Shown: piece by piece, positions 40,625 to 55,988 of the stretch
Layout of the letters: each line of letters begins with the position of its first letter
Position numbering within the stretch: the stretch's first letter is position 1
Assembly: GCF_030268085.1 (NCBI RefSeq)
Contig: NZ_BSDE01000003.1
Location: 434,001 to 498,000, forward strand
DNA from: Geothrix limicola
GTDB lineage: Bacteria > Acidobacteriota > Holophagae > Holophagales > Holophagaceae
Direction: 5' to 3'
Length of the DNA: 64,000 nucleotides
Program-made: the position numbers and the translations under genes
Notes under the pieces: model-generated
Databases searched by the model: none
What the model was told of the DNA's origin: nothing
Seen by the model: the letters and a program-made list of their open reading frames with translations, nothing else

Positions 40625-41250
40625 CGCGGCTCATGCTGCTGCGCCACGGCCCCACGACCGCGAGCCAGGGCGGCGCGCCGCTGGGCAGGCTGGACCTGCC
40701 CGTGAGTCCCGAGGGCGAGGCGCGCTGGCCCGAGGTGAAGCGCCACCTCCAGGCCCTGAATCCGGAGCGTGTGCTGTGCTCGCCGCTTCAGCGCAGCCGC
40801 CGCCATGCCGAGGACCTGGGATTTCCCCTCACGGTATTGGAGGATCTGTCGGAGCAGGCATTCGGCACTTGGGAAGGCCGTCCCTGGGATGAACTCTGCG
40901 CCGCGGAACCCACCGCCACAACCGCATTCTTCGAGGCACCCTTTGAGTCACCCGCGCCGAATGGCGAATCCTTCGACGCGGTGACGCGTCGTGCCCTGCG
41001 CGCCTTCGAGGGCGCCTGGGATCCCGCGCGCACCACGCTCGTGCTCGCCCACGCGGGGCCCCTGCGCGCGATCCTCACGCACCTGCTCGGCGAGCCTCGC
41101 GAACGGGCGTTGGAGGTGGTCTGGCAACCCTTCGGCCTCACCTGCCTGGAGGTGGATGAGGAAGGGCGCGCAGGGCTGTGCTGGCATAACCACGTGCTGC
41201 CAGGAATGCCTTGTGATCCGGAAAGCCCCGTGTTTAGATCGGGGTTCTGA
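40621..41250 (+). CDS. cobC: Alpha-ribazole phosphatase (histidine phosphatase family)
   Basis: A 209-residue phosphatase that removes the phosphate from alpha-ribazole-5'-phosphate or the cobalamin phosphate. The family motif LMLLRHGPTT at the N-terminus holds the catalytic histidine, and LVLAHAGPLRAILTHLL the second histidine. A TTG overlapping the cobS stop (TTGA) gives the family-like beginning TRLMLLRHG and was chosen as start; the ATG at 40633 is an alternative. The B12 riboswitch begins six bases after its stop. Confidence 0.88.
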   Translation: MTRLMLLRHGPTTASQGGAPLGRLDLPVSPEGEARWPEVKRHLQALNPERVLCSPLQRSRRHAEDLGFPLTVLEDLSEQAFGTWEGRPWDELCAAEPTATTAFFEAPFESPAPNGESFDAVTRRALRAFEGAWDPARTTLVLAHAGPLRAILTHLLGEPRERALEVVWQPFGLTCLEVDEEGRAGLCWHNHVLPGMPCDPESPVFRSGF

Positions 41251-41256
41251 CATCGC

Positions 41257-41419
41257 GTCCTGTGATGTTCGGGAAGCCGGTGAGATTCCGGCACTGCCCC
41301 GCAACGGTAAGCGCCATCCCCCGGGATGAGACCGCAAGCCCAGCCACTGAGATTTCTTGGGAAGGCTGGGGGGATCGCCAAGATCCTGTCGCGCGCAAGT
41401 CCGGAGACCGGTCCAGGAC
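41257..41419 (+). promoter_or_regulatory. Cobalamin (B12) riboswitch aptamer
   Basis: An adenosylcobalamin-type riboswitch. The conserved core is clear: GGGAAGCCGGTGAGATTCCG (from 41271), then the B12 box GCCCCGCAACGGTAAGC, and at the far end AAGTCCGGAGACCGGTCC. The ends pair through GTCCTG (41257-41262) with CAGGAC (41414-41419). It lies upstream of btuB, so it should lower expression of btuB-btuF-cobO-cbiB-cobD when B12 is plentiful. Confidence 0.95.
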
Positions 41420-41448
41420 CTAGACCCCCGTCGCGGGAGCGGGCGGTT

Positions 41449-51080: not shown

Positions 51081-51593
51081 ATGGGATCCCAAACAAAGCT
51101 CCCCAAGGCCGACGCCGCCACGCGGCGCATCCTCCAATCCCTGCGGGCCATCGTGCGGGACCTGCGCCTGGCCTCCGTGTCCTGCGAGAGGCGCTTCGGC
51201 CTGAGCGCCGCCCAGCTCTTCGTGCTCCAGGTCCTGCAGGATCAGCCGGGCCTGAGCCTGGGCGAGGTGGCCGAGCGCACGGGCACGGATCAAAGCTCGG
51301 TATCCGTGGTGGTGCGCAAGCTCCAGGAGAAGCAGCTCGTGCAGAAGCAGGCCTCCCCCGAAGACGCGCGGCGCCTGGTGATCCACCCGACCGCCGCCGG
51401 AAGTCGCCTCGCGCAGTCGGCGCCGCCCGCCGTGCAGGGCCAACTGATCCAGCGCCTGGCGGCGTTGGGAACACGAGACCGGGCCCAGCTCGCGGAGCTG
51501 CTGGAACGCTTTGCGCCGGCGGATGCCGAGGCGCAGCCGATGTTCTTCGAAGAAGCGGCGGGCACGACGAAGAAAGGGAAAGCACGTGACTGA
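51081..51593 (+). CDS. MarR-family transcriptional regulator
   Basis: A 170-residue regulator with a MarR winged helix: LSAAQLFVLQVLQDQPGLSL, GTDQSSVSVVVRKLQEKQLV (recognition helix) and the wing SPEDARRLVIHPTAAG. The C-terminal tail is Lys-rich. It overlaps the chloride-channel gene by eight bases and probably controls it. No ribosome site is visible before the ATG. A TAGGAT box lies about ten bases upstream, so the message could be almost leaderless. Confidence 0.88.
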   Translation: MGSQTKLPKADAATRRILQSLRAIVRDLRLASVSCERRFGLSAAQLFVLQVLQDQPGLSLGEVAERTGTDQSSVSVVVRKLQEKQLVQKQASPEDARRLVIHPTAAGSRLAQSAPPAVQGQLIQRLAALGTRDRAQLAELLERFAPADAEAQPMFFEEAAGTTKKGKARD

Positions 51594-53427
51594 ACCCACC
51601 TCACCCTATGGTCTGTCCGGGGAAGGGATCCCCGTGGCGCCGAGTCTGGAGCCTTCCCTCAAGAACGCCCGGGTGCCTCTCGTCACGGCGGTCCTCGACG
51701 GCCGCACGGCCTTCCTGGGGCTTCTCGCCCTGGGCCTCGGCGTGGTGGCGGGCTACCTCGCGGACGTGCTGATCAAGCTCATCGGCCTCGTGACGAACCT
51801 CGCCTACTACCACCGCGTGTCCACGAGCTTTGCCTCCCCGGCGGGGCATCACCTGGGCTGGCCCGCGATCTTCATTCCCGTGGCGGGCGGGCTCATCGTG
51901 GGCCTCATGGCCCGCTACGGATCGCGGGCCATCCGCGGTCACGGCATCCCGGAAGCGATGGAGCAGGTGCTGCTGAATGAAAGCCGGATCCCGGCGCGCA
52001 TCACGCTGCTGAAGCCGCTGTCCGCGGCCATCGCCATCGGCACGGGCGGGCCCTTCGGCGCGGAGGGCCCCATTATCGCCACCGGCGGCGCGCTGGGTTC
52101 CCTGATTGGACAGTTGTTGTCCACGACGGCGCTGGAACGCAAGACGCTCCTGGCCGCGGGCGCGGCGGCGGGCATGGCGGCCACCTTTGGGGCCCCGGTC
52201 TCGGCGGTGTTGCTGGCGGTGGAACTGCTGCTCTTCGAGATGCGCCCGCGCTCCATCATCCCCGTGGCCCTCGCGGCCGTGGCGGCCACGGGTGTGCGCT
52301 ACTCGCTCGTGGGCATCCAGCCGGTCTTTCCCATGCCCGCACTGTCGGCGCCCAGTGGCATCGCCCTGGCGATCTACGTGCTCATCGGCGCGCTGGTGGG
52401 CGTGGCCTCCGTGGGCGTGACGCGGGCCGTCTACTGGATCGAGGATAGCTTCGAGCGGCTGCCCATCCACTGGATGTGGTGGCCCGCGCTCGGCGGTCTG
52501 GCGGTGGGCGGCATCGGGTACTTCGTGCCGCGCAGCATGGGCGTGGGTTACGACAACATCCAGTCCATCCTTTCGGCGAACCTCGTCGGCGTCACCCTCC
52601 TGACCCTCTGCCTGGCCAAGTTCGTCTCCTGGGCGGTTTCGCTGGGCAGTGGCACCTCCGGCGGCACGCTCGCGCCCCTCTTCACCCTCGGCGGCGCTCT
52701 GGGCGCCCTCGCCGGAGGTCTCATCGCCGCGGCCTTCCCGCAGGCGGGTGTGGATCCGCGCATCTGCGCCCTGGTGGGCATGGCCGCGATCTTCGCCGGG
52801 GCTTCGCGGGCCCTGCTGGCCTCGGCCATCTTCGCCTTCGAGATCACGCTTCAGCCCCTGGGCCTCCTGCCCCTGCTGGGCGGCTGCTCGGCGGCCTACC
52901 TGATTTCCGCCCTGCTGATGAAGCACAGCATCATGACGGAGAAGCTGGCCCGGCGGGGCGTCCGCGTACCCGAAGACTACTCGGCGGATTTCCTGGACCA
53001 GGTCCTCGTGAAGGAGGCGGCCTCGAAGCGGGTCGTCACCCTGGACGCCCGGCAGACCCTCGGCGAGGCGCGGGCCTGGATGGGCGCCGGCGCCGGAGGC
53101 GCGACGCACCACGGCTTTCCGATCCTGGAGGGCACCCGCCTGATCGGACTGCTCACGCGCCGGGACCTGCTGGAGGCGCAACACGATGAGGCTTCGCCCC
53201 TGCGGGATCTCATCCATCGCGACCTCGCCGTGGCCTACGAGGGGCATTCCCTTCGCGAGGCCGCGGACCACATGGTGCGCGAGAAGGTGGGCCGTCTCCC
53301 CGTGGTGGACGCGCACGCGCAGCTCGTGGGCATCCTCACGCGCAGCGATCTGCTGGAGGCCCATGCGGCGAGGCTCGCCTCCTCCGAAAAGGCCGAGCGC
53401 AGCCTGGTTCCGGCCCGGAGGGGCTAG
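51586..53427 (+). CDS. CLC-type chloride channel/transporter with C-terminal CBS pair
   Basis: A 613-residue membrane protein. The CLC pore region (about 30-440) holds the motifs RGHGIPEAMEQVL (for GSGIP), IGTGGPFGAEGPIIATGG (keeping the gating Glu of GxEGP) and LGSGTSGGTLAPLF. The C-terminus (about 490-605) has two CBS domains (KEAASKRVVTLDARQTLGEA and REKVGRLPVVDAHAQLVGIL). The first serine of the anion site is a histidine, as in the GHGVP subgroup. The GTG at 51586 has AAGGGA upstream and overlaps marR. Confidence 0.92.
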   Translation: MTEPTSPYGLSGEGIPVAPSLEPSLKNARVPLVTAVLDGRTAFLGLLALGLGVVAGYLADVLIKLIGLVTNLAYYHRVSTSFASPAGHHLGWPAIFIPVAGGLIVGLMARYGSRAIRGHGIPEAMEQVLLNESRIPARITLLKPLSAAIAIGTGGPFGAEGPIIATGGALGSLIGQLLSTTALERKTLLAAGAAAGMAATFGAPVSAVLLAVELLLFEMRPRSIIPVALAAVAATGVRYSLVGIQPVFPMPALSAPSGIALAIYVLIGALVGVASVGVTRAVYWIEDSFERLPIHWMWWPALGGLAVGGIGYFVPRSMGVGYDNIQSILSANLVGVTLLTLCLAKFVSWAVSLGSGTSGGTLAPLFTLGGALGALAGGLIAAAFPQAGVDPRICALVGMAAIFAGASRALLASAIFAFEITLQPLGLLPLLGGCSAAYLISALLMKHSIMTEKLARRGVRVPEDYSADFLDQVLVKEAASKRVVTLDARQTLGEARAWMGAGAGGATHHGFPILEGTRLIGLLTRRDLLEAQHDEASPLRDLIHRDLAVAYEGHSLREAADHMVREKVGRLPVVDAHAQLVGILTRSDLLEAHAARLASSEKAERSLVPARRG

Positions 53428-53554: not shown

Positions 53555-53761
53555 ATGCAAGAGATCCTGTCGAGTTCATACATCGTTCCCCTCGGCGCCT
53601 TCCTGCTGGCCGGCGTCACCGGCTGCTTCGCCATCTGGCGGAAGGTGCGCGAAGCCGAACTGGCCCATGACCGGGAGCTGCGCCTCAAGGAGATGGAGCA
53701 CGCCCAGCGCATGAAGGAACTGGAGCTGGAAAGCCTGCGCCTCGGGGCCGAAGGCAAGTAG
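53555..53761 (+). CDS. Small membrane-anchored coiled-coil protein
   Basis: A 68-residue protein. An N-terminal membrane helix (about 10-28, IVPLGAFLLAGVTGCFAIW) is followed by a charged helical tail (REAELAHDRELRLKEMEHAQ and so on) suited to a coiled coil. CGGAG lies six bases before the ATG. It follows the chloride channel by 127 bases and precedes the lactamase gene by 72. No known family was recognised; it may modulate a membrane complex. Confidence 0.68.
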   Translation: MQEILSSSYIVPLGAFLLAGVTGCFAIWRKVREAELAHDRELRLKEMEHAQRMKELELESLRLGAEGK

Positions 53762-53833
53762 CCGGAACTGCCCTCGCGGGCTTTGACGGCCGCATCCTAG
53801 GATGGAGGTTCGGCAACCTTGCGGAGGACCTGG

Positions 53834-54628
53834 GTGGACACAAGGCGGATCTTCTTGGCGCTGCTGCTGGGCCTGGCCCCGGCCTCCCTGCCCGCAGGCC
53901 CCCAGGACTGGTCCTCCCTGAGCCCGCAGGCGCAGCCTGCCCCGGGCCCCACGGTGGAGATCGGCACGGATCTCAGCGCGACGGAACTCCTCCCGAAGGT
54001 CTGGATCCTCGCCAGCACCTCCGAACTGGAGGGTTTCGGCCGCGTGTCCTCCAACGCCCTGCTGGTGGCCGGGCCCCGGGAAAGCCTGCTGGTGGACGTG
54101 CCGGCCACCGAGGCGCAGACGCGGCTGCTGCTGGATTGGGCGGCCCACACGCTGAAGCGTCCCGTGGGCGCGGTGCTCTGCACCCACGCCCATGCCGACC
54201 GCATCGGCGGCCTGTCGGCGGCCCACGCGCGGGGCATCGAATCCTACGGGCTTCCGCTCACACAGCGTTTCGCGGCGGACTATCACCGGCAGGCGCCCCG
54301 GCGCAGCCTCGGGCCGGAGGAGACCCGCAAGTTGTGCGGCATCCCGCTCCAGACCCTGTTTCCCGGCGCGGGTCACACGCCGGACAACCTCGTCGTGTGG
54401 CTGCCCTCCGTCAAGGTGCTCTTCGGCGGATGCCTCATCAAGGAGGCCGCCAGCACCGGCCTGGGCAACCTCGCGGACGCCGATCCTGTCTCCTGGAAGC
54501 GGGCCGTGGCCCTGGTCCAGGCCCGCTACCCCGAGGCGCGCTGGGTGGTGCCCGGGCACGGGGCCCCGGGGGGCCAGGATCTGCTCGCCCACACGCGCGG
54601 CCTGCTGGAAGCCCAGCCCGCGAAGTGA
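53834..54628 (+). CDS. Subclass B1-type metallo-beta-lactamase
   Basis: A 264-residue exported protein (signal peptide about 1-21) of the metallo-beta-lactamase fold, which hydrolyses beta-lactam rings with two zinc ions. The complete B1 ligand set is seen: His118, His120 and Asp122 in THAHADRIGG, His181 in GAGHTPDNLVVWLP, Cys200 in GGCLIKEAAS and His242 in VVPGHG. The B1 substrate-binding lysine (GGCLIK) and asparagine (GLGNLADAD) are kept too. The GTG at 53834 was selected over an upstream TTG because GGAGG ends six bases before it. Spacing and motifs match BcII-like enzymes, though activity is untested. A hairpin follows 20 bases after the stop. Confidence 0.9.
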   Translation: MDTRRIFLALLLGLAPASLPAGPQDWSSLSPQAQPAPGPTVEIGTDLSATELLPKVWILASTSELEGFGRVSSNALLVAGPRESLLVDVPATEAQTRLLLDWAAHTLKRPVGAVLCTHAHADRIGGLSAAHARGIESYGLPLTQRFAADYHRQAPRRSLGPEETRKLCGIPLQTLFPGAGHTPDNLVVWLPSVKVLFGGCLIKEAASTGLGNLADADPVSWKRAVALVQARYPEARWVVPGHGAPGGQDLLAHTRGLLEAQPAK

Positions 54629-54647
54629 GCTCGGCGAAAGCTCGCTC

Positions 54648-54675
54648 CTGGGACACAGCGTCCCAGAAATGGGAC
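54648..54675. promoter_or_regulatory. Array of symmetric TGGGAC boxes
   Basis: Three copies of one 6-base box alternate in orientation: TGGGAC (54649-54654), GTCCCA (54660-54665) and TGGGAC (54670-54675). The first two form a 7-base stem CTGGGAC/GTCCCAG around ACAGC, the last two a dyad with spacer GAAA. Position just before the efflux operon suggests binding of a dimeric activator or repressor. It could also serve as a terminator for the lactamase transcript. Confidence 0.6.
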
Positions 54676-54699: not shown

Positions 54700-54767
54700 A
54701 ACTGCATAAATGGCGGATGTTGAAAGCTGGCATCGCTTTGGCTGAGAACCGGGCTGGAGTCCCGGTC

Positions 54768-55988
54768 ATGGATATCGTTCTTCCCAAGCGCAGTCCCCTT
54801 CGCAAACGCCTCTGGATGGGCGCGGCCGCCCTGGGCGTGCTGGCCCTGATCTTCGGCCTGAGCCGGCTGAAGCCCGCGGCGCCGGAGGTGGACCGCCAAA
54901 GCCTGCTGCTCGACCGGGTCCAGGAGGGCGCCATGGTCTTCCAGGTGCGCGGCACGGGAACGCTGGTGCCCGTGGACGTGCGCATGATCACGGCCCAGGT
55001 GCCCTGCAAGGTCGAGCGCATCCTCCTCTTCCCCGGCACCGAGGTGCGTGAGGACAGCATCATCGCCGAGCTCTCCAGTCCCGAACTGCAGCAGTCGGCC
55101 CAGGACGCCTTCTGGAGCCTCAAGCGCGCCGAATCCGATTACAGCGTGAGCGCCCTGAACCAGAAGGGCACCGTGGCCTCGGCCCGCGCGGCGGAAAAGG
55201 AGGCGGCGGCCACGCTGAAGGCCTACCAGAAGCTCTTCAAGGAAGGGCTCCAGTCCGAAAGCGACGTACTGCGCGCCAACGCGAAGTACGAGGACTGCGC
55301 CGCGCGCCTCGCCACCGAAGAGGCCCGCATGGCGCTCTTCGAGGGGCGGGGTGGCCAGCTGGCGCCGGCCCGCGCCGCGCTGGAGCAGGCCCGCGCCCAG
55401 TACGCGCTGAAGCAGGCGCAGACCGCCTCGCTGCATGTGCGCGCGGGCATGGCGGGCATGCTGCAGCAGGTGCCCCTGCAGGTGGGCCAGCAGCTGGCGC
55501 CGGGCGCGAACCTTGCAAAGGTCGCCAAGCCCATGCCGTTGAAGGCCGAGCTGAAGGTCAGCGAAACCCAGGCCAAGGACATCCAGGTGGGGCAGGCCGT
55601 GGCCGTGGACACGCGCAACGGCATCGTGCAGGGCCGCGTCATCCGCATCGACCCCAGCGTGCAGAACGGCACCGTCACCGTGGATGCGAGCCTCGAAGGC
55701 GCGCTGCCCAAGGGCGCCCGCCCCGATCTCAGCGTGGAAGGCATCATCGAACTGGATCACGCGGACCGCGCCATCAAGGTGGGCCGACCCGTGCAGGCCC
55801 AGTCCTTCGCCACGCTGTCGCTCTTCAAGCTTTCGCCCGACGGCCGCGAGGCCACGCGGATCAAGGTCCGCCTGGGCCGGGCCTCCGTGAGCACCATCGA
55901 AGTGCTCGAAGGCCTGCATCCCGGCGACCAGGTGATCCTCAGCGACACCAGCGCCTGGGACGGCGTCGACCGCATCCGAATCCACTAG
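54768..55988 (+). CDS. HlyD/RND-type periplasmic adaptor subunit
   Basis: A 406-residue membrane-fusion protein bridging inner-membrane ABC permeases to an outer-membrane channel. It has an N-terminal membrane anchor (about 16-34, LWMGAAALGVLALIFGL), a lipoyl/barrel-sandwich part and a long hairpin (about 95-220, rich in Ala, Lys and Glu). The beta-barrel segment GAMVFQVRGTGTLVPVDVRM starts the periplasmic half. The start at 54768 was chosen from GGAG about nine bases upstream, family-like start and promoter position; an ATG at 54717 is an alternative. It heads a transport operon. Confidence 0.88.
   Translation: MDIVLPKRSPLRKRLWMGAAALGVLALIFGLSRLKPAAPEVDRQSLLLDRVQEGAMVFQVRGTGTLVPVDVRMITAQVPCKVERILLFPGTEVREDSIIAELSSPELQQSAQDAFWSLKRAESDYSVSALNQKGTVASARAAEKEAAATLKAYQKLFKEGLQSESDVLRANAKYEDCAARLATEEARMALFEGRGGQLAPARAALEQARAQYALKQAQTASLHVRAGMAGMLQQVPLQVGQQLAPGANLAKVAKPMPLKAELKVSETQAKDIQVGQAVAVDTRNGIVQGRVIRIDPSVQNGTVTVDASLEGALPKGARPDLSVEGIIELDHADRAIKVGRPVQAQSFATLSLFKLSPDGREATRIKVRLGRASVSTIEVLEGLHPGDQVILSDTSAWDGVDRIRIH

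Follow-up and report, generated by a model that had tools for sequence, protein, structure and literature searches.

Organisation of the bla locus

The window, that is the whole stretch of 64,000 nucleotides analysed here, comes from Geothrix limicola. At 53834-54628 on its forward strand, the initial annotation had placed the gene of an environmental subclass B1 metallo-beta-lactamase (MBL), named bla hereafter. Direct reading of the sequence bears out this position and strand, the frame running without any internal stop to a stop codon at 54626-54628. Its overall GC content is 0.73, and its composition at the three codon positions (GC1/2/3 = 0.73/0.54/0.91) is of the coding type. A sigma-70-like promoter for bla was looked for and not found. 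The locus comprises the following features.

51081..53427, + strand: MarR regulator and ClC chloride channel with CBS domains, upstream; a unit kept elsewhere in the genus without bla
53555..53761, + strand: small membrane-protein-like ORF of 68 aa, the upstream neighbour; no Pfam or NCBIfam match
53762..54646, + strand: stretch unshared with relatives and holding little beyond bla (comparison with relatives; approximate, single genome copy)
53823..53827, + strand: GGAGG Shine-Dalgarno-like site, 6 nt 5' of the bla GTG (read from the sequence)
53834..54628, + strand: bla, subclass B1 metallo-beta-lactamase CDS, 264 aa, GTG start (NF033088 match, CcrA fold match)
53834..53896, + strand: probable signal peptide VDTRRIFLALLLGLAPASLPA (judged by eye)
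54185..54199, + strand: HAHAD zinc motif with H118, H120 and D122, equivalent to BBL H116, H118 and D120 (alignment)
54374..54376, + strand: zinc ligand H181, BBL H196 (alignment)
54431..54442, + strand: zinc ligand C200 (BBL C221) through K203 (BBL K224), the substrate-carboxylate lysine (alignment)
54467..54469, + strand: N212, BBL N233 (alignment)
54557..54559, + strand: zinc ligand H242, BBL H263 (alignment)
54649..54675, + strand: conserved operator-like site TGGGAC-N5-GTCCCA-N4-TGGGAC of the downstream operon (comparison of genomes)
54729..54742, + strand: sigma-54-like GG-N10-GC promoter element, kept in 4 genomes (assignment to sigma-54 putative)
54768..55988, + strand: HlyD/RND-type membrane fusion protein (start at 54768 probable), downstream; it opens a MacB-like ABC efflux operon

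The N-terminus of the protein is signal-peptide-like when judged by eye, with RR followed by IFLALLLGLAP and then SLPA. The segment TRRIFL (TRRIFLALLL) in this region resembles a twin-arginine motif, which is to be taken as a lead only; the host genome carries two TatC genes.

Besides the MarR-ClC pair and the small ORF, cobalamin-synthesis genes are also found upstream of bla. A cobalamin riboswitch at 41231-41431 precedes a large ORF, probably that of a TonB-type receptor, and cobalamin genes. On the other side, the MacB-like operon consists of the HlyD-type adaptor, two MacB-like permeases and an ATPase, and extends to about 61528. The first part of the window (1-29300) has a lower GC content per gene (about 0.54-0.66) than the rest (mostly 0.67-0.74) and looks like a genomic island; bla lies outside it. 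The contig is 746 kb long, and the proteins encoded on either side of bla are 83-89% identical to those of the genus, so contamination or misassembly is unlikely.

Evidence for subclass B1

The bla protein reaches 235.4 bits (E = 5.5e-70) against NF033088 (bla_subclass_B1), an equivalog-level model curated by NCBI with a cut-off of 200, and its best sequence match in the PDB is CcrA (E = 9e-54); these values exclude a chance resemblance. An AlphaFold2 model built with 28 aligned sequences has a mean pLDDT of 91.5, the first 30 residues being of low confidence, and shows the alpha-beta/beta-alpha MBL fold, closely resembling crystal structures of B1 enzymes. Foldseek superimposes it on CcrA and BcII over about 220-230 columns with TM-scores of 0.93-0.96 and rmsd values of 1.1-1.7 Å, the lowest for CcrA.

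The six zinc ligands announced by the initial annotation are all present in the alignment, the residue numbers given there being those of the protein itself and not BBL numbers. They make up the HHH (BBL 116, 118, 196) and DCH (BBL 120, 221, 263) sets that define B1 enzymes, and their columns are invariant across a 22-sequence B1 alignment. The lysine and asparagine claimed alongside them, found in most B1 members at BBL 224 and 233, correspond to K203 and N212, and BBL D84 and N70 are retained as well. Two positions depart from the usual pattern. The near-invariant second-shell glycine BBL G71 (position 75 of the protein, after N74) is replaced by alanine in this protein only among the 22, and the DTPW-type segment that is common in relatives reads DVPA. 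Because of these two replacements, the substrate profile may differ.

In a tree, the query falls within the B1 set, and this set is split from four other MBL-fold proteins with a support of 100/99 and in 100% of the bootstrap trees; the four are same-phylum proteins, one of them from the host genome, and include no authentic B2 or B3 enzyme. A distant row, L145, with a branch of 9.2 and apparently misaligned, is excluded from this tree. Within B1, the query forms a long single branch devoid of a well-supported sister. Its grouping with the CfiA group, with VIM/NDM or with same-phylum subsets is not rejected (p 0.25-0.39, with 0.28 and 0.39 for clades of the query and some same-phylum rows). 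A single clade of all eight same-phylum B1 proteins is rejected (AU p = 2.8e-5), the protein of an Acidobacteriota MAG (L078) being assumed to be of the same phylum and counted among the eight.

The phylogeny against these four MBL-fold proteins and the structure model both uphold the B1 call, as do the curated model and the ligands, and the assignment of the protein as a genuine subclass B1 metallo-beta-lactamase is well supported.

A B1 enzyme outside the named families

Membership of a family was taken as a score over the curated cut-off of that family or as an identity of at least 70%. On this basis, the bla protein falls in none of the named families considered (CfiA, MYX, PYX, COR, VIM, NDM, IMP, BcII and others). 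Its scores, in bits and followed by the cut-off, are 202/520 for MYX, 188/473 for PYX, 172/450 for COR, 176/550 for CfiA, 144/500 for VIM and 123/580 for NDM, and its full-length identity to CfiA, VIM-1 and NDM-1 is 35-39%. As the B1 model is passed and the family-specific models stay far under their cut-offs, the protein is assigned to B1 but to no named family.

A scan of 84,980 species genomes returned best relatives of about 42% identity among the matches listed. Among the matches listed from the data searched, the bla protein stands alone in what would be a new B1 family. In the plasmid search, the best relative was CfiA2 at 39%, with none closer, and the viral contigs searched contained no relative of bla; phage or plasmid cargo finds no support.

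The gene occurs in one of the 47 genomes of the genus in a genus-wide search and in one of the 77 genomes of the family, and 7 of the 396 genomes sampled from the phylum carry a B1 gene over the cut-off. No second copy of bla and no B3 enzyme over the cut-off were found in the host genome, the other MBL-fold proteins of which, as far as examined, are not B1. These counts agree with the earlier statement that a B1 enzyme is unusual in this setting, and no account of a B1 enzyme from this host group turned up in a non-exhaustive literature search. A class A lactamase was also considered for the host genome, where the sole Beta-lactamase2 match is a D-Ala-D-Ala endopeptidase-like protein.

Several other B1 genes met in these searches have unusual structures. 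Two same-phylum genes, L023 (G181:C60) and L025 (G197:C1), contain one in-frame TAG each, which may stem from decay, assembly error or recoding, and the reading frame of L025 continues in from a sulfatase-like protein. In L029 (G084:C94), just the last third of a B1 gene is open, with 50% identity over 88 aa, and this may be a decayed copy. Fusions were also seen: in an alphaproteobacterial MAG (L105:1463-3652), a single open frame of 730 aa combines a B1 domain, a PF00144 serine Beta-lactamase-family domain and TPR; in the Acidobacteriota MAG already mentioned (L078:5947-7656), a B1 domain over the B1 cut-off is fused to a GH113 glycoside hydrolase; and in a member of the Bacteroidaceae (L071:5950-7515), a B1-like domain is fused to a GDSL lipase.

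Gain or inheritance

The initial annotation had described the neighbourhood of bla as native and not mobile. The native part stands as far as composition is concerned (GC 0.73, GC3 0.91, equal to the values of the genome and of the surrounding genes), and mobile elements were not seen nearby: the annotated neighbours include no integron, IS, transposon, plasmid or phage gene, and a repeat pair framing bla was looked for without any being found. The description as native is otherwise weakened: in the genomes searched, the gene is restricted to one species of the genus, where it occupies a species-specific junction that joins the MarR-ClC unit to the ABC efflux operon. The MarR-ClC pair, the small ORF (with homologues at other places in 6 other genomes of the genus) and the adaptor operon each exist in some relatives at separate places, so the gene order around bla is particular to this species. 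DNA shared with relatives resumes about 20 bp past bla, from which the unshared stretch is placed at roughly 53762-54646.

This confinement to one species and the position between segments that relatives keep apart make gain the most likely origin of bla, and a single-gene gain by this species is likelier than deep inheritance. That a common clade of all eight same-phylum B1 proteins is rejected also counts toward gain. As the GC and GC3 of bla match those of the surrounding genes, any gain would be old or from a GC-rich donor. The same composition, the lack of a framing element or repeat pair, the seven B1-carrying genomes of the phylum sample and the unrejected clades with some same-phylum rows would also suit a native locus, with a B1 gene that the ancestor of the genus or family already had and that almost every other species has since lost. 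This reading is unlikely, for it requires losses in 46 other genomes of the genus and in all 30 other family genomes searched, it fits poorly with the rejected common clade, and it leaves aside the rearrangement of the neighbouring segments around bla.

Relation to the efflux operon

Under the favoured single-gene gain, bla would have slotted in upstream of the efflux operon. The two are on the same strand and only 139 bp separate the bla stop from the probable first start of the operon, so that bla might belong to this operon and work with it, for example in export or self-protection. Such a partnership is very improbable and was rejected, because the operon occurs without bla, beside other genes, in three relatives (G020, G029 and G307) and because the conserved operator and sigma-54-like promoter that serve it lie 3' of the bla stop. 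The TGGGAC-N5-GTCCCA part of the operator-like site (54649-54665) directly follows this stop, and four genomes of the genus (that of the window and those of L135, L137 and L139) have the operator-like site and the GG-N10-GC element ahead of the adaptor gene. A similar operator-like site is also present in L143. Because the conserved GG-N10-GC element lies at 54729..54742, the operon promoter is located after bla, and because this element falls within the first ORF call, the adaptor probably starts at 54768. The combination of both elements suggests an enhancer-binding regulator controlling efflux, and bla itself is probably transcribed separately from the efflux operon.

Predicted function

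B1 enzymes hydrolyze beta-lactams with two zinc ions via a bridging hydroxide, a lysine holding the carboxylate of the substrate. The bla product is most likely a periplasmic di-zinc beta-lactamase of this kind. The protein would be exported and would bind Zn1 by H118/H120/H181 and Zn2 by D122/C200/H242; K203 would hold the beta-lactam carboxylate while the bridging hydroxide opens the ring, and the host may thereby be protected from natural beta-lactams. The product is probably active on carbapenems. Berglund et al. 2017, in probably the largest test of its kind, expressed 21 predicted B1 genes in E. coli and saw imipenem hydrolysis with 18 of them, including 6 of the 8 chromosomal ones from outside Proteobacteria (PMC5637372); these proportions are the ground for expecting activity here.

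The 3 predicted genes of 21 that were inactive in E. coli (PMC5637372) and the replacement of BBL G71 are what one would cite for a B1-shaped hydrolase with another real substrate and weak or absent lactamase activity. Nevertheless, the protein has every metal ligand of active B1 enzymes as well as their Lys and Asn, and the curated model that it passes is of equivalog level, which makes this possibility highly unlikely. It is also decidedly doubtful, taken as a whole, that the protein stands for a deep-branching B1 lineage without a name, spread over environmental phyla with few cultured members (Acidobacteriota, Planctomycetota and others close to the CfiA branch), and that it is exported by Tat rather than Sec and adapted to natural beta-lactams instead of clinical ones. 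The combined reading of a genuine B1 enzyme, an exported di-zinc lactamase of a new family, probably gained as a single gene and probably transcribed separately, is in turn held with high confidence.

Significance and comparison with known B1 enzymes

No close chromosomal source is known for the mobile B1 genes (PMC5637372). The present gene, which is very divergent and probably functional and comes from an environmental genus, extends the map of the environmental reservoir, and its probable gain as a single gene, with no visible mobile machinery, would illustrate how B1 genes enter lineages otherwise without them. The gene is a divergent addition to a well-known subclass and leaves the understanding of the enzyme class unchanged.

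The best solved match by both sequence and fold is CcrA/CfiA of Bacteroides fragilis, which has the ligands, the lysine and the asparagine in common with the query and aligns with the model over 219 residues (TM 0.94 by target, rmsd 1.1 Å). It differs in the phylum of its host, in an identity of 37-39% and at BBL 121, where the query has Arg and CcrA/CfiA has Cys; its grouping with the query in the tree is neither supported nor rejected. MYX, PYX and COR, the chromosomal B1 enzymes of Myxococcaceae, give some of the highest family-specific scores below that of the general B1 model, with about 38-41% identity, but the query remains far under their cut-offs. The mobile clinical enzymes VIM (39% identity) and NDM (35%) share subclass, ligands and fold with the query, whereas the latter is encoded on a chromosomal contig with no integron, plasmid or IS nearby. 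BcII of Bacillus cereus is also close in fold (TM 0.96, rmsd 1.2-1.3 Å, about 35-37% identity), and the THAHADRIGG motif of the query is presumably carried by BcII too, but the query stays outside the Bacillota branch of the tree. The nearest rows in the tree, with up to 42-43% identity, are the same-phylum B1 proteins (G197, G181, G411 and G272) and OFTM233 of Acidobacteriota. These same-phylum proteins belong to families other than that of the query, and they include two genes with an in-frame TAG and one glycoside hydrolase fusion.
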